This document shows positions 9,088 to 20,044 of a DNA stretch of 64,000 bases, piece after piece (the stretch's first letter is position 1; every line of letters begins with the position of its first letter). A model generated the notes under the pieces. It saw nothing but the letters and a program-made list of their open reading frames with translations. It had not been told where the DNA came from and searched no databases. The DNA is taken from positions 1,364,001 through 1,428,000 of the forward strand of contig NZ_CP084260.1 of the NCBI RefSeq assembly GCF_022879575.1, given 5' to 3'. The stretch comes from Caballeronia sp. SL2Y3 (lineage in GTDB: Bacteria > Pseudomonadota > Gammaproteobacteria > Burkholderiales > Burkholderiaceae). Both the position numbers and the translations under genes were made by a program.

Positions 9088-10473
9088 TTATCGCGCAGCG
9101 GGCGTCGGCGCGGACGGTTGCGGCGCGGAATCGAGCCGGCGGAACACCGCGCCCGACAGCAGCGTGACCACGCCCATGCACACGAAGCTCAGTTTGAAGC
9201 CGAGCGACGCCGACCCGAAGTGTCCCTCAAAGACCTGCACGAGCGAGCCGCCGATCGACACGCCGAGGCCGATGGCGAGCATCTGCACCATCGAGAACAG
9301 GCTGTTGCCGCTGCCGGCGTCCTGCTTTGACAAGCCCTTGAGCGTGACGCTGTTCATCGCGGCGAACTGCATCGAGTTGCACGCGCCGAAGATCGCGAGA
9401 ATTGTGATTTCGGCGGCGAGCGGCAATGACGGCGAGAAAGCCGCGAACGCGACGATCGACGCGCCGACGAGCGCCGTGTTGACCAACAGGAACGTGTCGT
9501 AGCCGTAACGCTTGACGAGCCGCGCGATCCAGCGCTTGGAGACGGTGCCCGCAATCGCGATGGGCAGCATCATGAGCCCGGAATGCAGCGGACTATAGCC
9601 GAGGTCCAGTTGCATCATGAGCGGCAGCAGAAACGGCACCGCGCTCGAACCGATGCGGCACAGCAGATTGCCGATCAGGCCGACGCTGAAATTGGGCTCG
9701 CGAAAAAGCGCGAGTTTGAAGAGCGGATTGCGCCGGTAACGCGCATACGGAATGTAGGCGAACGCGGACGCCGCCGCGACCGCGAAGAGCGCCGCCGACA
9801 CCGCGCCGCGATGCGTTTGCACCGGGCTATCGAGCGCGAGCGAAAACGCGACCATGCACAGCGAGAGCAAGCCGCAGCCGATGAAGTCGAAGGGCGGCGC
9901 GTCGTGCAGCGTGTCGTGGGGCAGGAAACGCTGCACCGCATAGAGGCCGGCCGCGCCGATCGGGACGTTGATCAGGAAGATCCAGTGCCATGTGAAAGAC
10001 TGGACGAACCAGCCGCCGAGCGTCGGGCCGAGAATCGGGCCGACTTGTCCGGCGACGGAAATCATCGCGAGCGCGGAGACATAGGCTTCGCCGCTGACGG
10101 CGCGCAACACCGCGAGGCGGCCGATCGGCAGCAGCATCGAGCCGCCGATGCCTTGCAGCACGCGCGCAAAGATGAGTTGGTTGAGCGAATGCGCGCCCGC
10201 GCAGGCGAGCGATCCGACGACGAACAAGCTGATCGACACGAAGTACACGCGCCGCGTGCCGAAGCGGTCGGCGAGCCAGCCGGAGGCGGGCGTGAGCAGC
10301 GCCATCGTGAGCGTGTACGCGACGACGATCGACTGCATCGCGAGCGGCGCGGCGTGCAGGTCCCGCGCGATGGAAGGCAGCGCCGTGTTGACGATCGTCG
10401 TATCGAGCGCCTGCATGAAAAAGCCCACGGCGACGATCCACAAAAGCGCCGTGTGCGAAGACTGTCTGGTCAT
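9088..10473 (-). CDS. DHA2-family MFS multidrug exporter (MdtD-like)
   Basis: 461 residues with 13-14 predicted helices. The N-terminus WIVAVGFFMQALDTTIVNTALPSI contains the DHA2 motif D1 (LDxTIVNVALP), followed by motif A (GWLADRFGTRR) and motif C (GPILGPTLGGW). It resembles MdtD of E. coli more than EmrB, since no periplasmic adaptor gene is nearby. Inner-membrane proton-driven export of drugs or metabolites is the family role. Divergent from the LysR gene at 10604 with a 130-base shared control region, so that LysR protein is its likely regulator. Confidence 0.93.
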   Translation of the reverse strand: MTRQSSHTALLWIVAVGFFMQALDTTIVNTALPSIARDLHAAPLAMQSIVVAYTLTMALLTPASGWLADRFGTRRVYFVSISLFVVGSLACAGAHSLNQLIFARVLQGIGGSMLLPIGRLAVLRAVSGEAYVSALAMISVAGQVGPILGPTLGGWFVQSFTWHWIFLINVPIGAAGLYAVQRFLPHDTLHDAPPFDFIGCGLLSLCMVAFSLALDSPVQTHRGAVSAALFAVAAASAFAYIPYARYRRNPLFKLALFREPNFSVGLIGNLLCRIGSSAVPFLLPLMMQLDLGYSPLHSGLMMLPIAIAGTVSKRWIARLVKRYGYDTFLLVNTALVGASIVAFAAFSPSLPLAAEITILAIFGACNSMQFAAMNSVTLKGLSKQDAGSGNSLFSMVQMLAIGLGVSIGGSLVQVFEGHFGSASLGFKLSFVCMGVVTLLSGAVFRRLDSAPQPSAPTPAAR

Positions 10474-10603
10474 GAGGGAGAGAGCGGGCAGTCGCGCTGG
10501 AACCGTTTTCAGCGCATGTGTGAAATCTTAGTGACTGCGGGCGTTATCGGGAACCCCGCTAACCGCATTGACTGTTATCGGCTTTGCCGATCACAATGCG
10601 CGG

Positions 10604-11464
10604 ATGCTCAATCCGCTCTGGCTGAACACTTTCGCGACGGTGGCCGCGTCGCACAGTTTCACCGAAGCCGGGCGGCAACTCGGCTTGCGTCAATCCAGCG
10701 TGTCGGAGCATATCCGGCGCTTGGAAGAGAGCGTCGGCCGGCGGCTTTTCCTGCGCGACACGCACTCGCTCGCGCTCACCGCCGACGGCGAAGCCATGCT
10801 CGTCCACGCCCGCGTGATTCTCGAAGCGATGTCGCACGCCGAATCGCAGTTCCGCTCGCCTCGGCTGCGCGGACGCGTGCGGCTCGGCTCATCCGACGAT
10901 CTCGCACTCGGACCGTTGCCGAGCGTGCTCGCCGCGTTTCGCGACTCGCATCCGGACGTGGAACTGGAAATCACCATCGGCATGACCGGGCGGCTGTATC
11001 AATTGGTCGACGCGGGCGAACTGGATCTCGCCGTCGGCAAGCGGCGTCTCGGCGATGCGCGCGGCACGCGGCTTTTCAGCGGGCGGCTGGAATGGCTCGC
11101 GAAGCCGGGAACCGTCGTCGATACAGCGCTGCCGCTGCCGCTCATTCTCGTCGCCGAGCCGAGCGTCACGCGCGCCGTCGTGCTCGATTCGCTCGCGATG
11201 ACCGGCGCGCGCTGGCAAATGGTCTGCACGAGCAGCAGCCACGCGGGCTGCATCGCGGCGGCGCGCGGCGGGCTCGGGCTCACGGTGCGCTCGCACTTTC
11301 TGGCGGGCCGCGGGCTCGCGCCGCCGGTCAATCGCGCGGAGCTGCCGGATTTGCCCGAGGTGGAGTTCATCGCGTTCGGCGCGAAGCATCTGAGCCGGCC
11401 GGCGGAGACGCTGCTCCAGCTTCTGGAGACGAGCGATTTGCGCGGGGAGTGGGACGGGGAGTAG
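10604..11464 (+). CDS. LysR-family transcriptional regulator
   Basis: 286 residues from ATG 10604; an ATG at 10568 in frame would add 12 residues. The N-terminal winged helix-turn-helix (LNTFATVAASHSFTEAGRQL then SSVSEHIRRLEESVGRRLF) and a periplasmic-binding-like effector domain (GRVRLGSSDDLALGPLPSVL onwards) are typical. Divergent from the DHA2 exporter gene, the classical layout for a LysR protein controlling its neighbour. The effector is unknown. Confidence 0.93.
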   Translation: MLNPLWLNTFATVAASHSFTEAGRQLGLRQSSVSEHIRRLEESVGRRLFLRDTHSLALTADGEAMLVHARVILEAMSHAESQFRSPRLRGRVRLGSSDDLALGPLPSVLAAFRDSHPDVELEITIGMTGRLYQLVDAGELDLAVGKRRLGDARGTRLFSGRLEWLAKPGTVVDTALPLPLILVAEPSVTRAVVLDSLAMTGARWQMVCTSSSHAGCIAAARGGLGLTVRSHFLAGRGLAPPVNRAELPDLPEVEFIAFGAKHLSRPAETLLQLLETSDLRGEWDGE

Positions 11465-11530
11465 GGAATGCGGCGTGCTTTGGGCGGATCAATCACGTCG
11501 TGCCGCCGCAACGCCGGGCGGCGGCCCCGA

Positions 11531-13258
11531 ATGGCTAACCCGAAACGCTTCTTATCTATTGAGCGGCCATTGAAGTATCCACTCCAGCCCGTGCTTTCTC
11601 TCCGCCGTCTTTTCCTTGCCGATGCCTCGCGCCGCGCGTGCCGGGCATTGCTCGTCGCCGCGCTTGCGTTCCTGCCGCTCTCGCGCGCGCACGCCGCCGC
11701 GTACGTGACCCGGCACTGCGATGACCTCGCCGGCAAGACGGTGCCCGCGTCGACCATCGGCCTGCCGACGCGCGGCGCGTTGATCGTCACGGCGTCGGCG
11801 GTCAAGGCGGCCGCGCCGGGCAATCGCAACGGCGAGTACTGCCGCGTGACCGGCATCATCCGCGCGATTCAGGAGACGACGCCCGACATCCGCTTCGAAG
11901 TGAACTTGCCGAGCCGCTGGAACGGGCGCGCGCTGCAAATGGGCGGCGGCGGCTACAACGGCGTGCTGGTTTCCGGCACCGAGCCGATGCCCTTCGCGCC
12001 CGATTCGACGCCGCTCGCGCGCGGCTATGCGACCTTCGGCTCGGACTCGGGGCATGTCGGCAATTCGGGGCGCGCGGATTTCGCGGTCAACGACGAAGCC
12101 ATCGTCAATTTCGGCTTCGCGCACCTGAAGAAAACGCGCGATGTCGCGCTCGCGCTGATCGAAATGGGCTACGGACGTTTGCCCGACAAGATCTACTTCG
12201 CGGGCGGCTCGACGGGCGGACGCGAAGGCTTCACCGTCATCGAACGGTTTCCGAACGACTACGACGGCGTGATCGCCAACGCGCCCGCCATCAACTTTTC
12301 GGGCGTGCGGCTGCTCGGCGTGAAAGTAGGGCAGGCGTCCTACGCGAAGCCGGGCGGCTTCGTCGGGCTCGCGCAGCAACGGCGCGTGTACGAGACGGTG
12401 GTCCACGAATGCGACCGGCTCGACGGTCTCGCAGACGGCATCGTCGGCAATGTCGAAGCGTGCCGGCAACTGGAACCGCAGATCATCGCGTCGTTGCGCT
12501 GCGCGAACGGCCAGCGTCCTTCCCTGCGCGACAGCTGCCTCTCCGATGCGCAGCTCGGCACGCTGGAACTGCTGCGCGACGGTCTTTCGTTGCGTTATCC
12601 GCTTGCTTATGGCGTCGCGATGTATCCCGGCTACAACGTGTTCCAGGGCGTGGACTTCTCCGGCATGCTCGGCCTCGGCGATTCGGCCACGCTCCTGAAC
12701 CCGCCGACGTTCGCCGCGAACGGCTATCTCTTCGCGCAGGGCGACGCGTATGTCCGCCACTTCGTCACGCGCGACGCGGCGGTGAGCGGACTCTCGTTCG
12801 ATATCGACAATCCCGGCCGCTACCGGCAGCGGCTCGTCACGCTCGCCTACACGGTCGGCGCGATGAACCCGGATTTCTCCGCGTTCATCGCGCACGGCGG
12901 CAAGCTCGTCGCCATGCACGGCCTCGCCGACGAAGTCATCAGCCCGAACCAGACGATCGCGTTCTATCGCGGACTCGTCGAGCGATATGGTCAGGAGACC
13001 GTCGATTCGTTCATGCGGCTCTACATGGTGCCGGGCTTTCAGCACGGCAACGGCGTGTTCATTCCCGCATGGGACGAACTCGGCGCGCTCGACGAGTGGG
13101 TGACGAACGGCGTCGCGCCGGAGACGCTCATCGGCACGGACATCGCGCCGGCCACCAACGGACGCACGCGTCCCATCTGTCGATACCCCGGCTATCCGCG
13201 CTATCTCGGCAAGGGACGAGTGAACCTGGCCGCGAGCTTCCGCTGTACCGCGCCGTGA
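11531..13258 (+). CDS. Secreted tannase/feruloyl esterase family alpha/beta hydrolase
   Basis: About 575 residues. The serine nucleophile motif is GGSTGGREG, as in tannase/feruloyl esterases, and the C-terminal part has GLADEVISP and PGFQHGNG, supplying acidic and histidine members of the triad. Paired cysteines (for example the CDDL and EYCRV region) fit an exported protein. A hydrophobic stretch LLVAALAFLPLSRAHAA ending in an AxA site is a signal peptide; the N-terminal extension before it makes the start uncertain (ATG 11531, or an in-frame TTG/GTG at 11570-11591). Likely periplasmic or extracellular hydrolysis of aromatic (gallate or hydroxycinnamate) esters. Confidence 0.9.
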   Translation: MANPKRFLSIERPLKYPLQPVLSLRRLFLADASRRACRALLVAALAFLPLSRAHAAAYVTRHCDDLAGKTVPASTIGLPTRGALIVTASAVKAAAPGNRNGEYCRVTGIIRAIQETTPDIRFEVNLPSRWNGRALQMGGGGYNGVLVSGTEPMPFAPDSTPLARGYATFGSDSGHVGNSGRADFAVNDEAIVNFGFAHLKKTRDVALALIEMGYGRLPDKIYFAGGSTGGREGFTVIERFPNDYDGVIANAPAINFSGVRLLGVKVGQASYAKPGGFVGLAQQRRVYETVVHECDRLDGLADGIVGNVEACRQLEPQIIASLRCANGQRPSLRDSCLSDAQLGTLELLRDGLSLRYPLAYGVAMYPGYNVFQGVDFSGMLGLGDSATLLNPPTFAANGYLFAQGDAYVRHFVTRDAAVSGLSFDIDNPGRYRQRLVTLAYTVGAMNPDFSAFIAHGGKLVAMHGLADEVISPNQTIAFYRGLVERYGQETVDSFMRLYMVPGFQHGNGVFIPAWDELGALDEWVTNGVAPETLIGTDIAPATNGRTRPICRYPGYPRYLGKGRVNLAASFRCTAP

Positions 13259-13270
13259 CCGTGGCGCACA

Positions 13271-13648
13271 TCAAAGCGCGTTCACCGCACGCGGCACGAA
13301 CCGAGCGATGAAGCGCGACCACGCGGGCCTGACCTGCTGCGCGCGATACGAAGTCAGCGACACCTCGACCGCGCGCTCCGACTCCGACGACAGCCACACG
13401 CGTTCGCCGCGCGCAAGCCGCACGACATCGCCGGGCTTGAGCCAGTAATCGTAGGGGTCCTGATGACGCGTGAGCCATATCGAGGCATCGGCGCGCAAGT
13501 CGGCATCCCGCGCGAGCCGCCACGAGACCGTCTGATGCGGCAGCACCTCGACATACACGACCACGCGCGCGCCCGACGCATGCAGCTTGCCCGAGGCGAC
13601 GCCGTGGCGCGCGCCACGCCCTTCCACCACTTGCGACAGCTCTTCCAT
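13271..13648 (-). CDS. DUF2917 domain protein
   Basis: 125 residues starting at ATG 13648 with an excellent Shine-Dalgarno (AAGGAGAG). The central block with LRADASIWLTRHQDPYDYWLKPGD and LARGERVWLSSE matches the small DUF2917 fold common in Burkholderia, a cupin-like all-beta protein of unknown function. No signal peptide. It is convergent with the tannase gene (12 bases between stops). Confidence 0.85.
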   Translation of the reverse strand: MEELSQVVEGRGARHGVASGKLHASGARVVVYVEVLPHQTVSWRLARDADLRADASIWLTRHQDPYDYWLKPGDVVRLARGERVWLSSESERAVEVSLTSYRAQQVRPAWSRFIARFVPRAVNAL

Positions 13649-13696
13649 CTTGCTCTCCTTGATTAGCCGAAGACGGAAGGCCAGGCACGCATGCAA

Positions 13697-13726
13697 CAAA
13701 AAGGCCCCGTCTTGCGGCGGGGCCTT
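13697..13726 (-). terminator. Rho-independent terminator for minus-strand transcription
   Basis: A 9-bp perfect stem (AAGGCCCCG at 13701-13709 with 13718-13726) has an A-run on its left, which is a U-run on the minus strand. It lies about 195 bases past the end of the glycosidase gene at 13921, so it probably ends that transcript before the DUF2917 gene. Confidence 0.8.
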
Positions 13727-13920
13727 CGGAATCGACTTGCTTGCCTGTCTCGCTAGCGCACGCGTTCTCCCGATGACCCGCCGATGATGGCGTTCACTGG
13801 GTTTTTAATCGCGGCGATGGCGAGGGAAAGGATTGCGTGCATGAACGCAGTATCGATGCGAACGCGCGGCGCTGTCAATATCGCGATAGCGGGCGCGTTC
13901 GCATTCCTACGGCGCGGAGT

Positions 13921-15837
13921 TCACATGCCGGTGTAACCCTGAGGCTTCGTTGCGTTCTTCTTCGCGACATCCGCGTTGGTCGAAACGACGTACTGCGGCG
14001 ACTCGGTGAGCGTGAGCGTCACCACGCCGTTCGTGTACGGCGCGCTCGACACGTTGCCCATCGCGTCGATCAGCTTGACCGTGCCGCTCGTGCCGGCTGC
14101 ATCGACGTCGAGCTTGTAGGCAGTGCTGTAAGTCGTGCTGAATGCGCCGTTCGAAGCCGGCCACACCGCGTTGTTGTGCGTCCAGAGCGCGGTGATGACC
14201 TTGCCGTTGCCGAGCTGCTGGAACGCGTAGGCGTACACGCCGGAGGGCAGGTTGTTCACGGGACCGAGCGTGGTGGTGCCGTCGAGCACGCGGGTCATCG
14301 CGGCGACTTCCATCGCGGCCGGCTTCGGGCTGATGTTCGTCGTGCCGAACGCGGCCTGCGGATGATCCAGATCGAAGAACGTGCCGTAGCCCGGCTCGCC
14401 GGGGAAGTCCGGCCCGAAGAACACATAGGTCTGATCCGCGCCTTCGCCGAGCAGAATGATATGCGCGCGCGCGACGACCGCACCGTGCGCGAACAGAATG
14501 TTCGGCGTCGGATAGTTCGGACCGTAGTTCGCGCCGATGTCATAGCTGATGCCCGTCTCGGTCACGAAGAGCTTCATGTTCGGCTTGTAGTCCTTCGCCA
14601 TTTCCGCGCGCAGGTTGCGCATCTCGTTGAGCAGCGAGTTCGCGGCATCGGCGGCGTTCGCGTCCGTGTGATGACGCTCCGGCGGATGCGACGGCGACGT
14701 GCCCGCATCGTAGTAACCATGCGTCGCGATGCCGTCGATATACTGCGCGAGGCCGAGCGGCGCGAGGCGCTTCAGGCGCTCGGTGGTGAGCGACGGGAAC
14801 GGCTCGGCCGGACCCATCACGACCGCGTGCGGGTCCTTCGAATGCAGGCCCTGATACGCCGCCTTGTACAGCGCGACGAAGTTCACGTCCGTGTCCTTCC
14901 ACAGGATGTACGGCTCCCACGTCACCTGATAGTAGTTCGCCGACATGGTCGGGTAGTAACGCGCGCGCATCGCCTCGGTTTCCTGTCCGACGCGGCCCAT
15001 GTAGTTCGCGTAGTAGTTCAGGTCGTTCGGGATGTAGCTGTAGTCGGGGCTCAGGCCGTGCATGCTCGCGCCGCCCGGAATGCCGTCCAGACGGACGAGG
15101 CGCATGATCTTGCCGGACGTATAGAACGGGTCGAGGTTGTTGGCGTTCGGGTTGAAGGCGAAGCGGCCGTTCGGCTCCATCACGGACATCTGGCGGTCGT
15201 CGATCGTCGACGAGATGCCGAGCGCGGCGAGCATCGTGCCGTTGCCGTTGAAGCCCTGCATGCCGAAGCGATGCTGTTCCTGCTTCGCGTACGTGACGGC
15301 GGGGATCACGCCGCCGAGGTCCGGAATCACGCCGAAGGTGGCGATGCCGTTCGGGCGCGTGCCGGCCGTCTGCACCTGTCCGCCGTGATCGACGAGCGTC
15401 GCGGAAACCGCGAAATAACCGGCGAGCGTCGAGGAGCACGTGAGCGTGGTCTTCGTGGCCACTGCGGGCGCGGGGAAGCTGCCGCTCGCGACCGTCTTGC
15501 CGAGCGCATCGGCGATGGTCCACTTGAGCGTGTCGGCTGAAGCCGCGCGCGTCGTGATCGCCACCTGGAACTTCGTGCCGGCGGGGAACATGCGCGAGCC
15601 GTCGCTGCTCGGCGTGTCCGCCGTGATCTGTCCGCTGCCGCCCGAGGCTGCGGTTGCCGTGGGCGCGCCGCAGGTCATCGACTGCGCGCTCGCCGCCTTG
15701 GCGACCGCAGTCGGGTCGGCCGCCGTTGAACCGTCCGCTGCGTTCATGACGGAGGCGGGCGAAGAGGCGTCGTCGTTGCCGCCACAACCGGCGAGAGCGA
15801 GAACGAGCGTCGAAAGGAGGAAAGTATTCTTCTTCAT
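13921..15837 (-). CDS. Secreted lipoprotein, clan GH-A-like glycoside hydrolase
   Basis: 638 residues starting at ATG 15837, which gives a perfect lipoprotein signal (MKKNTFLLSTLVLALAGC; lipidation at Cys18) and has AAAGGAGG-like sequence upstream. After a Ser/Ala-rich linker and a beta-rich domain comes a TIM-barrel region. VTWEP looks like the acid/base Glu strand (usually NEP) and LFVTETG like the nucleophile strand of retaining clan-A glycosidases. A C-terminal beta domain (VYAYAFQQLGNGKVITALWTHN) resembles those of GH39/GH5 relatives. Outer-membrane anchored or periplasmic polysaccharide hydrolysis is inferred; the exact GH family is not assigned. Confidence 0.75.
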   Translation of the reverse strand: MKKNTFLLSTLVLALAGCGGNDDASSPASVMNAADGSTAADPTAVAKAASAQSMTCGAPTATAASGGSGQITADTPSSDGSRMFPAGTKFQVAITTRAASADTLKWTIADALGKTVASGSFPAPAVATKTTLTCSSTLAGYFAVSATLVDHGGQVQTAGTRPNGIATFGVIPDLGGVIPAVTYAKQEQHRFGMQGFNGNGTMLAALGISSTIDDRQMSVMEPNGRFAFNPNANNLDPFYTSGKIMRLVRLDGIPGGASMHGLSPDYSYIPNDLNYYANYMGRVGQETEAMRARYYPTMSANYYQVTWEPYILWKDTDVNFVALYKAAYQGLHSKDPHAVVMGPAEPFPSLTTERLKRLAPLGLAQYIDGIATHGYYDAGTSPSHPPERHHTDANAADAANSLLNEMRNLRAEMAKDYKPNMKLFVTETGISYDIGANYGPNYPTPNILFAHGAVVARAHIILLGEGADQTYVFFGPDFPGEPGYGTFFDLDHPQAAFGTTNISPKPAAMEVAAMTRVLDGTTTLGPVNNLPSGVYAYAFQQLGNGKVITALWTHNNAVWPASNGAFSTTYSTAYKLDVDAAGTSGTVKLIDAMGNVSSAPYTNGVVTLTLTESPQYVVSTNADVAKKNATKPQGYTGM

Positions 15838-16258: not shown

Positions 16259-16612
16259 GTGGCTTTTCTGTTGCTCATCGTTGAACCCGTCGATCAGCGC
16301 GCGCAGCGCACGGCCGAGGAAGGGCGGGAAGCGTACCGGCAAATGGTCGAGTTCGCCGACACACTGAAGGCACGCGGCGTCTTGCGCGCGTGCGAATCGC
16401 TGACGTCGCTCAAGGACGCGTCGCGCGTTTCCACAGTCAGAGGCGACGCGCGCGTCATCGACGGGCCGTTCGCGGAAGCGAAGGAAATGATCGGTGGCTT
16501 CTTCCTGCTCGATTGCGAGACGCACGCCGAAGCGGTGGCGATTGCCGCAGAGTGCCCGGCGGCGGCATGGTGCACGGTCGAGGTCCGCAAGCTCGGGCCG
16601 TGCTATCTGTGA
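16259..16612 (+). CDS. YciI-family (DGPF domain) protein
   Basis: 117 residues from a GTG start with a perfect Shine-Dalgarno (AAAGGAG). The hallmark DGPF (VIDGPFAEAKEMIGGFFLLD) is present, as in the YCII-related domain. Members have a ferredoxin-like fold and unknown chemistry; one relative takes part in chlorinated aromatic breakdown. It is the first gene of a YciI-VOC-sigma cluster, the arrangement that defines ECF42-type sigma factors, whose targets are DGPF genes. Confidence 0.92.
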   Translation: MAFLLLIVEPVDQRAQRTAEEGREAYRQMVEFADTLKARGVLRACESLTSLKDASRVSTVRGDARVIDGPFAEAKEMIGGFFLLDCETHAEAVAIAAECPAAAWCTVEVRKLGPCYL

Positions 16613-16616
16613 CGCG

Positions 16617-16643
16617 TGTCGATTTCCGCGTGCTTCGATCGTC
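16617..16643 (+). promoter_or_regulatory. ECF42-type promoter match upstream of the VOC gene
   Basis: TGTCGA at 16617-16622, then 17 bases, then CGTC at 16640-16643. This matches the published ECF42 promoter signature as I remember it (TGTCGA in the -35, CG[A/T]C in the -10 region). It begins five bases after the YciI stop and precedes the VOC gene and the sigma gene, so the sigma factor may drive its own operon. Confidence 0.5.
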
Positions 16644-16680
16644 GTTCGAACGACATCCCATGAAAACGGAGCTTCACGCC

Positions 16681-17079
16681 ATGCACAAGCAGATCTTCGT
16701 GAACCTGGCGGTTCGCGACCTCAAGCAATCAATGACGTTTTTCAAGGCGCTCGGCCTTCACTTCAACCCCGCATTCACGAACGACGCCGCCGCGTGCCTC
16801 GTCATCGGCGAGAACATCTACGCGATGCTGCTGACCGAGGCGTTCTTCAAGACGTTCACGGACAAGACGCTCGTCGATGCGCACGAGAGCGTCGAGGCGC
16901 TCGTGTGCCTGTCATGCGAGAGCAGGGCGGAAGTGGACGAACTCGTGGCCAAAGCGGTGGCCGCGGGCGGCCGGACGCCGCGCGCCCCGCAGGATCACGG
17001 GTCCATGTACGGCCACGCGTTCGAAGACCTCGACGGCCACACCTGGGAACTGGTGCATATGGATCCGGAAGCGGCGTGA
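16681..17079 (+). CDS. VOC family (glyoxalase-like) protein
   Basis: 132 residues from ATG 16681 (CGGAG nine bases upstream); an ATG at 16660 would add seven residues. MHKQIFVNLAVRDLKQSMTF begins the first beta-alpha-beta-beta-beta module and GHAFEDLDGHTWELVHMD ends the second, a typical pattern of the vicinal oxygen chelate fold with a C-terminal Glu ligand (WELVHMD). Metal-dependent chemistry on a small molecule is likely; the reaction is unknown. Its stop overlaps the sigma gene start (GTGA). Confidence 0.9.
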   Translation: MHKQIFVNLAVRDLKQSMTFFKALGLHFNPAFTNDAAACLVIGENIYAMLLTEAFFKTFTDKTLVDAHESVEALVCLSCESRAEVDELVAKAVAAGGRTPRAPQDHGSMYGHAFEDLDGHTWELVHMDPEAA

Positions 17080-18364
17080 GCGCGTCGTCGGACGAACGCG
17101 ATGCAGCGACGCGGCGGACCATCGAGGCGGTGTGGCGCATCGAATCGGCGAAAGTGATTGCGAGCGTGGCGCGCGTCGTGCATGACGTCGCGCTCGCGGA
17201 AGAGCTGGCGCAGGACGCGTTCGTCGCGGCGCTCGAGCACTGGAGCCGCGAAGGCGTGCCGGAGAAACCGGGAGCGTGGCTCATGACGACAGCGAAGAAC
17301 CGGGCGCTCGACCGTCTGCGTCAGTACGCGCTGCACGCGCGCAAGCACGAGGAACTCGGCCGCGATCTGGACGCGCAGGAGCGGCACATCACGCCCGATT
17401 TCGTCGATTTCCTCGACGCCGCCCGCGACGACGACATCGGCGACGATCTGCTGCGGCTCGTGTTCACGGCCTGCCATCCGGTGCTGTCGCTGGATGCGCG
17501 CGTCGCGCTGACGCTGCGGCTCTTGGGCGGGCTCACGACGGACGAAATCGCGCGGGCGTTTCTCGCGCCGGAGCCGACGATCGCGCAGCGCATCGTGCGG
17601 GCCAAACGCGCGCTGTCGGCGGCGCGCGTGCCGTTCGAGGTGCCGAAGGCCGGCGAGCGCGCGGCGCGGCTGGCATCGGTGCTCGAAGTCATCTATCTCA
17701 TTTTCAACGAGGGTTACTCGGCCACGGCCGGCGACGACTGGATGCGGCCCGCGCTGTGCGACGACGCGCTGCGGCTCGGCCGCATTCTCGCCGAACTGAT
17801 GCCGCACGAAAGCGAGGTACACGGCCTCGTCGCGCTGATGGAGATTCAGGCATCGCGGATGAAGGCGCGCGTGGACCGTGAAGGCCGCCCGGTGCTGTTG
17901 CCGGATCAGGATCGCAGCCGCTGGGACCCGTTGCTGATTCAGCGCGGCTTCGCGGCGCTGCGGCGCGCGGCGGCGTTGGGCGGCGCGCGCGGCGTGTATG
18001 CGTTGCAGGCGGAGCTGGCGGCATGCCATGCGCGCGTGCCGAGCGCCGCCGAGACCGATTGGCCGATGATCGTCGCGCTTTACGATGCGCTGATGGACGT
18101 GGCGCCGACGCCGTGGTCGAGCTCAATCGCGCGGTCGCGGTGAGCATGGCGTCGGGGCCGGAGGCGGCGCTCGCGATCGTCGACCGGTTGCGGGAAGGTC
18201 CCGCATTGAAGAATTATCACTGGCTGCCCGGCGTGCGCGCGGATTTGCTGGCGCGGCTTGGTCGCATGGATGAAGCGCGGGATGAATTTGCGCGGGCGGC
18301 GGGGCTGGCGAGGAATGCGCGGGAGCGGGAGTTCTTGTTGGAGCGCAGTCGGACGCTTCGGTGA
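17076..18364 (+). pseudogene. ECF42-type sigma factor with a frameshift in its C-terminal extension
   Basis: Starts at GTG 17076, overlapping the VOC stop. Sigma region 2 (ESAKVIASVARVVHDVALAEELAQDAF, then KPGAWLMTTAKNRALDRLR) and region 4 (LTLRLLGGLTTDEIARAFLAPEPTIAQRIVRAKRAL) are intact, followed by the long ECF42 extension. In the first frame the product stops at 18143 after an atypical tail (PWSSSIARSR). One base appears to be missing at about 18111-18116 (CCGTGG where CCGGTGG is expected): the next frame continues with VVELNRAVAVSMASGPEAAL and ends with LLERSRTLR at 18364, the normal C-terminus. The extension is reported as necessary for ECF42 activity, so the gene may be dead; a sequencing error is the alternative. 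Confidence 0.85.
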
Positions 18365-18384: not shown

Positions 18385-18412
18385 ATTTGACATAAGATAA
18401 ATTAGCGCATTT
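18385..18412 (-). other. dif: dif-like XerC/XerD recombination site
   Basis: Read on the minus strand: XerC-type half AAATGCGCTAA (18402-18412), six-base spacer TTTATC (18396-18401), XerD-type half TTATGTCAAAT (18385-18395). The XerD half differs from the canonical TTATGTTAAAT at one base. Allowing one missing base in the left half, the whole site differs from the common proteobacterial dif at only about three positions. It is AT-rich in a GC-rich setting, lies 20 bases past the sigma gene, and is flanked by an insertion sequence 5 bp away, as seen for dif-targeting elements. Confidence 0.72.
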
Positions 18413-18417
18413 TTATT

Positions 18418-18471
18418 TGTAGGTCCCAAGTTCAAATGTCGTGTTTCTGCTAAGTAGAAATGTCGCATTTT
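18418..18471 (+). repeat. Left terminal inverted repeat of the insertion sequence
   Basis: Begins TGT and carries AAGTTCAAATGTCG followed by TAAGTAGAAATGTCGC. The inverted copy at the other end has AAGTTCAAATGTCG and TAAATAGAAATGTCGC at nearly the same spacing. The repeated AAATGTCG cores are probable transposase binding sites. Confidence 0.85.
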
Positions 18472-18514
18472 GCCGTAGGTTCGTGGCCAGACAAGCGTTT
18501 CTGGAGCGCGGACC

Positions 18515-19954
18515 ATGAACTCGACTGGGACGATCACGATGTCGATGCGCGAACTGGACCGACTCAAGGTGATTCAGGCCGTCGCCGAGCAACGGCTCAA
18601 GCCAGGGCGTGCCGCCGAGCGCCTGGGCCTGAGTGTGCGGCAGGTCGAGCGGCTGGTGCGGCGGTATGGCGCTGACGGCGCGTGCGGGCTGGTATCGGGC
18701 AAGCGCGGACGCGCGAGTAATCATCGGCTGCCAGATGGCGTCGCGCAGCGCGCGATCAGCTTGATCCGCGCGCGCTATACGGACTTCGGCCCGACACTGG
18801 CGTGCGAGAAGTTAAGGGAATGCCACGGCATCGAACTGGCCGTCGAGACGGTCCGCTCCCTGATGACGGCGGCGGGCCTTTGGGTGCCTCGCAAACAGCG
18901 CCCGCCGCGGATTCACCAGCCGCGCAACCGCCGCGCGTGTCTGGGCGAGTTGATCCAGATTGATGGCAGCGATCGCCGCTGGTTCGAGGATCGTGCGCCG
19001 GCGTGCACGCTGCTGGTATTCATCGACGATGCGACGGGCCGGCTGATGACGCTGCACTTTACGGCCACCGAGTCGACCTTCAGCTATTTCGAGGCGCTAT
19101 CGAAGTACCTGCGCGCACATGGCAAGCCGATCGCGTTCTATAGCGACAAGGCCAGCGTCTTCTACGTCAAGAACCGCTCACAGACCGCTGGCAAGGGCGT
19201 GACGCAGTTCGGGCGGGCCTTGTACGAACTGAACATCGACGCGTTCTGCGCGAATACGAGTCAGGCCAAGGGGCGCGTTGAGCGCGCCAATTTGACCTTG
19301 CAGGACCGGCTGGTCAAGGAATTGCGCTTGCGCGGGATCAGCACCTGGGAAGCGGCCAACGCTTATGCGCCCTCCTTCATTGCTGATTTCAATCAGCGCT
19401 TTGGCAAGCCGCCACGCAGCAACCACGATGCCCATCGGCCCCTGCGCGCCGACGACGATTTGACGCAACTGCTGGCGCATCGCGTCTGGCGCAAGGTCAC
19501 CCACGCGCTGACGGTGCAATACGACCGCGTGATGTATCTGCTGGAAGACACGCCCGCCAATCGCCTATTGATTCACCAGCAAGTCGAGGTGGTCGAGTAT
19601 CCGAGTGGCTGCGTCGAGGTTCAGGCTGGCGGCGAGGTGCTTTCCTGCGGCACTTACGACCGTATTGCGAGGATTGATCAGGGTGCGGAAGTCGACAACA
19701 AGCGCTTGGCGCACGCACTCGAAGCTGCACGGTTGCTGCAAGCCAAACGAGACGATCGTCGGTCGTGCGATGCACCGTCACGCACGCATCGCGGCGAACA
19801 GGTTCGAGCCAAGAAGGCGCTCGAAGGACTGAAGAAGCAACGCGCGTTGAGCATCGCAGACATGAACGAAGCGATTCTCGAAGTCAGCGCAAAAACAATG
19901 AGGGAACGGGGGGGCGGCTGCGCCGCCCCAACCCCGAAACCTGAATGCAAGTAA
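18515..19954 (+). CDS. DDE transposase, ISNCY family
   Basis: 479 residues. An N-terminal helix-turn-helix (LKPGRAAERLGLSVRQVERL, about residues 28-47) precedes an integrase-core domain with the catalytic acids in LGELIQIDGSDRRW (Asp), IAFYSDKASVF (Asp) and KGRVERANLTLQDRL (Glu). This pattern is that of the ISNCY/IS1202-type transposases. ATG 18515 has GGAG upstream; ATGs at 18539 and 18545 are also possible. It catalyses movement of the surrounding element. The frame is intact. Confidence 0.92.
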   Translation: MNSTGTITMSMRELDRLKVIQAVAEQRLKPGRAAERLGLSVRQVERLVRRYGADGACGLVSGKRGRASNHRLPDGVAQRAISLIRARYTDFGPTLACEKLRECHGIELAVETVRSLMTAAGLWVPRKQRPPRIHQPRNRRACLGELIQIDGSDRRWFEDRAPACTLLVFIDDATGRLMTLHFTATESTFSYFEALSKYLRAHGKPIAFYSDKASVFYVKNRSQTAGKGVTQFGRALYELNIDAFCANTSQAKGRVERANLTLQDRLVKELRLRGISTWEAANAYAPSFIADFNQRFGKPPRSNHDAHRPLRADDDLTQLLAHRVWRKVTHALTVQYDRVMYLLEDTPANRLLIHQQVEVVEYPSGCVEVQAGGEVLSCGTYDRIARIDQGAEVDNKRLAHALEAARLLQAKRDDRRSCDAPSRTHRGEQVRAKKALEGLKKQRALSIADMNEAILEVSAKTMRERGGGCAAPTPKPECK

Positions 19955-19969
19955 GCCAAACATCCGTGC

Positions 19970-20024
19970 AAAACGCGACATTTCTATTTAGCGGTAACCC
20001 CGACATTTGAACTTAGCGGCAACA
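19970..20024 (-). repeat. Right terminal inverted repeat of the insertion sequence
   Basis: Mirror of the left end, ending in ACA at 20022-20024 and followed directly by the TTATT target duplication (20025-20029). Confidence 0.85.
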
Positions 20025-20044
20025 TTATTAGCCGCTTAAGGAAC

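Follow-up and report, generated by a model that had tools for sequence, protein, structure and literature searches.

An IS1202-Family-Type Insertion Sequence 5 bp from the Chromosomal dif Site of Caballeronia sp. SL2Y3 and the Recurrence of Its Relatives at dif in Burkholderiales

Introduction

At dif, the duplicated chromosomes of the cell are separated from each other. To go by its title, the paper of Siguier et al. (2023, Plasmid 127:102696) reports that XerCD sites are targeted by a subclass of the IS1202 family.

The association of the IS1202 family with dif was established by Harmer, Pong and Hall in 2023, including chromosomal dif in Acinetobacter, and contact of the transposase with XerC was already proposed by these authors (PMC10132070). 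The family has as its hallmark a large DDE transposase of 394-507 aa in which E is followed seven residues later by Q (PMC10132070). The closest described elements are of the ISAjo2 type, in the ISAba32 subgroup. They share with the insertion sequence described here the size, the TGT/ACA terminal repeats with an inner repeat, and the DDE transposase with Q at E+7; they likewise show a 5-bp duplication and have the left end placed 5 bp away from the XerC arm, including at dif sites of chromosomes (PMC10132070). The elements described here differ from them in their hosts, which are Caballeronia and other Burkholderiales, in the host-type dif arms, in a 6-bp spacing that is also common, and in the presence of stacks.

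ISBcen27 from Burkholderia cenocepacia (1,690 bp, 496 aa) also has a 5-bp duplication (PMC10132070, Tables 7 and 8). Judging from its published description, it resembles the present element in this duplication and in the 5-bp placement. Its target in CP021069 lies 5 bp from a site with the arms AATGTCGATAA and TTATGTCAAAT (PMC10132070), and both arms equal those of the B. mallei dif (PMC2731167). Although the ISBcen27 targets were called only very loosely pdif-like by the authors (PMC10132070), this identity indicates that the CP021069 target is a regular host-type dif.

More distant systems, whose transposase fold appears related, are Tn7 (TnsABC+D at attTn7), IS21 (IstA/IstB) and Mu (MuA/MuB). 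Tn7, too, inserts at a single fixed site and on one side of it (PMC10132070). These systems rely on partner proteins, whereas the element described here encodes the transposase alone, and a host complex would substitute for the partners. No report of a dif-targeting insertion sequence in Caballeronia was found in the open-access literature, to which the search was confined. Added here are the chromosome 1 dif hot spots, the stacked copies, and a tyrosine-recombinase element 3 bp from the same arm (five of six testable ends, in two genomes).

The Insertion Sequence and the Adjoining dif Site

The window is the whole stretch of 64,000 nucleotides analysed from Caballeronia sp. SL2Y3. The following features were recognised by sequence reading, pattern scans, genome comparison, profile searches and alignment of the element ends.

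18385..18412, minus strand: dif, 28 bp (sequence reading, pattern scans, GC-skew maximum about 1.5 kb off)
18385-18395: XerD arm of dif (the parts run from C to D on the minus strand)
18396-18401: spacer of dif
18402-18412: XerC arm of dif
18413..18417, no strand: left copy of the target duplication, TTATT (sequence, end alignment)
18418..20024, plus strand: complete insertion sequence, 1,607 bp, assigned to the IS1202 family, ISAjo2/ISAba32 type (sequence, genome comparison, profile, end alignment)
18418..18443, plus strand: left terminal inverted repeat, 26 bp, beginning with TGT; 20 of 26 positions match the right end
18458-18465: second end motif AAATGTCG, left
18515..19954, plus strand: transposase gene, 479 aa, with D150, D211, E256 and Q263 at E+7 (open reading frame, profile, alignment)
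About 19976-19983: second end motif, right
19999..20024, minus strand: right terminal inverted repeat, ending with ACA-3' (end alignment)
20025..20029, no strand: right copy of the target duplication, TTATT (sequence, end alignment)

On the plus strand the locus reads ATTTGACATAA-GATAAA-TTAGCGCATTT-TTATT-TGTAGGTCCC, and dif on the minus strand, from C to D, is AAATGCGCTAA-TTTATC-TTATGTCAAAT (18385-18412). The site shows the 11-6-11 architecture with the conserved XerD arm that characterises chromosomal dif. This arm is identical to the XerD arm of the B. mallei dif (PMC2731167), while the complete B. mallei-type 28-mer had no match with up to three mismatches in the SL2Y3 genome. The pattern CGMTAAN6TTATGTCAAAT, with up to three mismatches, matched once in the window, at this dif, against 0.02 matches expected from shuffled sequences. 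The pattern CGNTAAN6TTATGTMAAAT, with up to two mismatches, matched four times in the genome, once on each of the four large contigs (C1 to C4); the match on C1 is the window dif, and a reversed-pattern control gave one match genome-wide. There is one dif-like site per large contig, as expected of a site present once per replicon. The maximum of the cumulative GC skew, calculated for C1 over a contiguous 400 kb, lies at C1:1383917, inside the insertion sequence and about 1.5 kb from dif. These pattern matches, the single site per large contig and the GC-skew maximum together indicate that the window dif is genuine. A better dif elsewhere on the replicon is ruled out by the genome pattern scan. 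XerD is encoded in the genome (366 bits, above the cut-off), and a second recombinase (273 bits) is, from its sequence, likely to be XerC.

The gene preceding dif encodes Sigma-70 domains and marks the chromosome 1 dif. In the window its reading (16494-18143 and 18023-18364) seems to shift frame near 18110-18145, and the end of the protein continues in the second, overlapping open reading frame. The frameshift could be real or a sequencing error.

The left end of the insertion sequence lies exactly 5 bp from the XerC arm. The second end motif is found at positions 41 and 42 counted from the two ends. The transposase scored 508 bits against NCBIfam NF033594 (ISNCY family transposase; cut-off 250) and contains HTH domains. 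D150, D211, E256 and Q263 are invariant across 30 aligned relatives. The transposase is 43-58% identical to the plasmid relatives outside the L191 row. A profile of the 30 relatives matched TnsB in PDB at E = 3e-4, in the HTH part only. The quality of the structure model is low to moderate (mean pLDDT 70, pTM 0.44), and its fold matches, with IstA, CAST TnsB and MuA as the closest and retroviral integrases and Tn7 TnsB as further ones, support kinship only.

The length of 479 aa and Q263 at E+7 agree with the family hallmark. The inverted repeats have the size of about 22-29 bp, the TGT/ACA ends and the inner repeat near each end that are typical of the family, and TTATT on both sides falls in the group with short duplications (3-5 bp). 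The left end is at the XerC arm of a dif-like site in the fixed orientation seen in the family. Based on these features, the element is placed as a new member in the ISAjo2/ISAba32 branch of the IS1202 family, the branch that targets dif. This copy is presumably active.

Comparison of the insertion sequence with its own genome gave seven rows: the full copy, three cross-matches between its ends, a 35-bp stretch, and two remnants, on C3 and C2. The remnant on C3 (237 bp, 95%) stops exactly 5 bp short of the sole dif-like site of C3, AGCGACGCTAA-TTTGCA-TTATGTAAAGC. The one on C2 (148 bp, 89%) lacks an adjoining Xer-like site; its distance from the C2 dif-like site is about 39 kb. Of the two other genomic copies, therefore, one supports the placement at dif and one, decayed, does not.

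The C2 remnant is a decayed left end (L003 1501-1648; G000:C2:703319-703466). It represents either a true off-target insertion or a copy displaced by rearrangement.

The left flank of the locus was matched in 53 of 58 Caballeronia genomes, and 30 listed loci were read. In G040 (L117), a single 5-mer, TTTTT, separates dif from the right flank, and the insertion sequence is absent. The right flank is homologous from the first base (83% over 1,321 aligned columns). Such an empty allele with a single 5-mer is what one expects if transposition duplicates 5 bp. Four other genomes (G049, G047, G007 and G013) have dif without the insertion sequence, and there the right-flank homology begins further on.

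A preliminary description, made from the window alone, had proposed a 28-bp dif of 11-6-11 layout at a chromosomal terminus in Burkholderiaceae, with a complete 1,607-bp insertion sequence 5 bp beyond the XerC half and TTATT as the duplicated target. All of this is upheld by the observations above. It had also named a better dif on the same replicon as a finding that would speak against it, and empty alleles with a single TTATT as a check; no better dif was found, and an empty allele with a single 5-mer is present in G040. Its question whether other copies sit at Xer sites is answered positively by the C3 remnant and negatively by the C2 remnant.

Left Ends of Related Elements

Relatives of the transposase were found by protein search in at least 48 of the 58 genus genomes. 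Among 80 listed genus matches, taken as those starting within the first 11 residues, 52 have a dif-like site with a score of at least 12 (of 15) within 400 bp upstream. The scan of named genomes gave 78 loci, from the best 80 of 174 matches, with upstream DNA in 77. A dif-like site with a score of at least 12 is present upstream of 45 of these 77 loci, versus 6 of 933,400 background positions.

The 80 genus entries and 74 of the 77 named entries (the other three start late in the protein) were pooled into 154 entries. After 21 duplicates, 14 entries without a recognisable left end and four at contig ends were set aside, 115 left ends were testable. Among these matches listed, 78 of the 115 left ends adjoin the XerC arm of dif, with a spacing of 5 bp in 57 and 6 bp in 21; 49 belong to the Caballeronia set and 29 to the named set. 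A further 18 of the 115 follow immediately on the right end of another element of IS1202 type. In the control, random positions were drawn from these upstream stretches with the true sites kept in, and 29 of 29,400 were at dif.

The remaining 19 left ends among the 115 listed were sorted by eye. They comprise six cut or interrupted ends, six degenerate dif sites (the script had classed one of these as a XerD arm alone), one end misplaced by the script where a dif of score 14 is present, one tandem with a longer spacer, four ends behind the end of a tyrosine-recombinase element, and one end that is intact but away from dif (G035:C5:150299).

In the named set, dif-flanked copies occur in Paraburkholderia, Burkholderia, Cupriavidus, Pararobbsia, Trinickia, Variovorax and Aquabacterium, in addition to one unassigned proteobacterial genome. 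Among 11 relatives in plasmid records, seven have a dif-like site with a score of at least 11 upstream, six at 5 bp and that of B. glumae at 7 bp. No upstream dif-like site of this score was found for the other four, including ISEsa1, for which neither a duplication nor a target is reported in PMC10132070. By these sequence comparisons, dif is a recurrent landing pad for IS1202-type elements in many species, on the XerC side.

A 5-bp duplication is found in 26 of 56 near-complete dif-flanked copies, 19 at 5-bp and 7 at 6-bp spacing. Three copies have four matching bases, and in 27 no duplication was found. Where found, the duplication stays 5 bp at both spacings. The spacing label changed seven times on a 51-row tree (mean of shuffles, 10.2; 3-4 of 500 shuffles as low). 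The spacing is somewhat clustered but does not define a single transposase clade. In the set of 77 distinct targets, the XerD arm is invariant over its first six bases, and variation is seen at positions 3-6 of the XerC arm and in the 5-mer, a contrast partly built in because the site score weights the XerD arm most. The invariant bases are at least 22 bp from the insertion point.

Hot Spots and Stacked Copies

At the chromosome 1 dif, the XerC side is occupied by a left end of IS1202 type in 17 of the 30 listed Caballeronia loci (at a spacing of 5 bp in 11, 6 bp in five and 8 bp in one), and the XerD side in none of the 30. Beyond these 17, decayed IS1202-type ends were recognised by eye in L132, L138 and L142. 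A second set of 30 loci was fetched by the dif pattern alone, and 27 were scorable; a XerC-side end is present in nine of these (six at 5 bp, two at 6 bp and one at 7 bp), and no XerD-side left end was found in the 27. The chromosome 1 dif sites of Caballeronia are hot spots. Several of the XerC-side ends are left-end stubs only. The left ends differ in sequence, indicating that dif sites were hit more than once.

Stacked copies are also observed. In G018:C2 the order is dif, TTGAG, a first insertion sequence, TTGAG, a second insertion sequence and a further left-end stub. Pairs are present in G030:C72, G038:C4 and G054:C50. At these four loci, the dif-proximal copy was identified for five of the 18 tandem copies. 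It is likely that the stacks arose by repeated insertion at one point, with the newcomer placed between dif and the older copy. The word "tandem" is absent from the 2023 text (PMC10132070).

Selection of the Target

It is probable that the element is a dif-targeting insertion sequence whose cue is dif occupied by XerC/XerD. The DDE transposase, of the TnsB/MuA/IstA kind, presumably binds the paired motifs at both ends of the element. The ends would be joined, with a 5-bp stagger, to the DNA just outside the XerC arm, the left end facing XerC and the 28-bp dif left intact. XerC/XerD on dif would act as the outside target-selection factor, replacing partners such as TnsC/TnsD, IstB or MuB. In favour of this reading are the one-sided insertion, the long distance between the cut and the most constant part of the target, the play of one base in the spacing, and the lack of a partner encoded by the element. 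Some observations point the other way: the intact non-dif end in G035, the decayed C2 remnant, the 27 of 56 copies without a duplication, and the four of 11 plasmid relatives without a dif-like site.

It is unlikely, yet worth weighing, that the transposase reads the DNA sequence of dif itself, without XerC/XerD protein. The target DNA is well conserved, and the transposase has its own HTH domains and no known Xer-binding part. By homology with TnsB, however, these domains would bind the ends of the element. The one base of play (57 at 5 bp and 21 at 6 bp among the matches listed), which is no clade trait, also argues against direct reading of DNA. In some targets (L223, L255 and L263 are examples) the XerD arm is kept and the XerC arm, at the insertion, is poor; these would be simpler to explain if a bound complex sets the position. 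None of these arguments is decisive. Two other explanations concern the association with dif as such. A chance landing in AT-rich intergenic DNA near dif agrees with the flank, which is AT-rich and lies between genes, but its probability is negligible given the exact one-sided spacing (78 of 115 left ends among the matches listed versus 29 of 29,400 random positions) and the empty XerD side (0/30 listed loci and 0/27). It is also very improbable that the dif-like site travels with the element, or that the element arrived as cargo of an Xer-mobilised dif module. Dif modules with such insertion sequences are known on Acinetobacter plasmids (PMC10132070, PMC12907356), but empty dif loci exist, identical transposases lie beside different dif sequences (C1 and C4 of G039), the 5-bp duplication is present, and the window holds a single dif at the site and no second one. 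Both of these explanations are contradicted by the data, the latter for this locus.

The preliminary description had invoked the 5-bp rule of ISAba32-type elements, which is published (PMC10132070) and agrees with the left-end survey. It had further suggested that XerC/XerD guide the transposase. Guidance by the dif site is borne out, at the level of sequence, by the site, the orientation, the spacing, the 5-bp duplication, the empty allele and the recurrence in many species. Guidance by bound XerC/XerD protein is plausible, and contact of the transposase with XerC/XerD would be its likely basis; the data fit bound Xer protein and DNA alike.

The placement rule, best documented in Acinetobacter, is extended here to primary and secondary replicons of Burkholderiales. 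The ISBcen27 targets, left open in 2023, gain a reading in which at least one is a regular host-type dif. As a simple system, the elements lend themselves to the question of how an essential host site is located by a transposase that lacks partners, and the neighbourhood of dif in these genomes is to be read as a mobile-element hot spot.

A Tyrosine-Recombinase Element and Other Observations at dif

Four IS1202-type left ends lie 7-8 bp behind the sequence GGTGCCAAGAATCA(A/C)CA. In G058 this sequence is the right end of an element of about 6.5 kb:

L268 about 9213-15691 (G058:C29): tyrosine-recombinase element, about 6.5 kb, RIT, GInt or Tn554-like

Three long open reading frames of this element match PF00589 (tyrosine recombinase), two above and one below the cut-off. 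Its left end in G058 is 3 bp from the XerC arm of a dif-like site with a score of 12. Further loci are L279, L280, L283, L284 and L286, and L042 near position 321.

A left-end motif derived from four loci was scanned over 299 family genomes without regard to dif. It gave eight matches in three genomes, two of them at contig ends. Five of the six testable left ends lie exactly 3 bp from dif, with scores of 13-14 of 15. These five come from two genomes, and as L279 and L284 were motif sources, three are new. The sixth end follows immediately on the right end of an IS1202 element and starts with ACTGG, as if an insertion sequence had later entered 5 bp from dif.

No report of such dif-adjacent landing of a tyrosine-recombinase element was found in the open-access literature; "dif site" and "XerC" are absent from the accessible text of PMC3414803, and "dif" is absent from PMC5385486. 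Because the ends of this element lie 3 bp from the XerC arm, it is possible, if somewhat doubtful, that the XerC flank is a shared docking platform. IS1202-type elements would land there at 5-6 bp and RIT/GInt/Tn554-like elements with three tyrosine recombinases at 3 bp, the Xer-dif complex steering both, and stacks would form beside an intact dif.

G048:C5 (2.36 Mb) has two dif-like sites, near 565112 and 2085098 (L104 and L110), both of them with a left end of IS1202 type at a distance of 6 bp. The two sites may mark a replicon fusion. The genes beside unoccupied dif-like sites were, by Pfam, ordinary genes with nothing notable. In 8 of 36 distinct IS1202-free dif-like sites among the fetched loci (L145, L146, L149, L154, L161, L163, L164 and L171), a common motif ending in (A/C)CTA(A/T/C) is observed on the XerC side, about 10-16 bp out.
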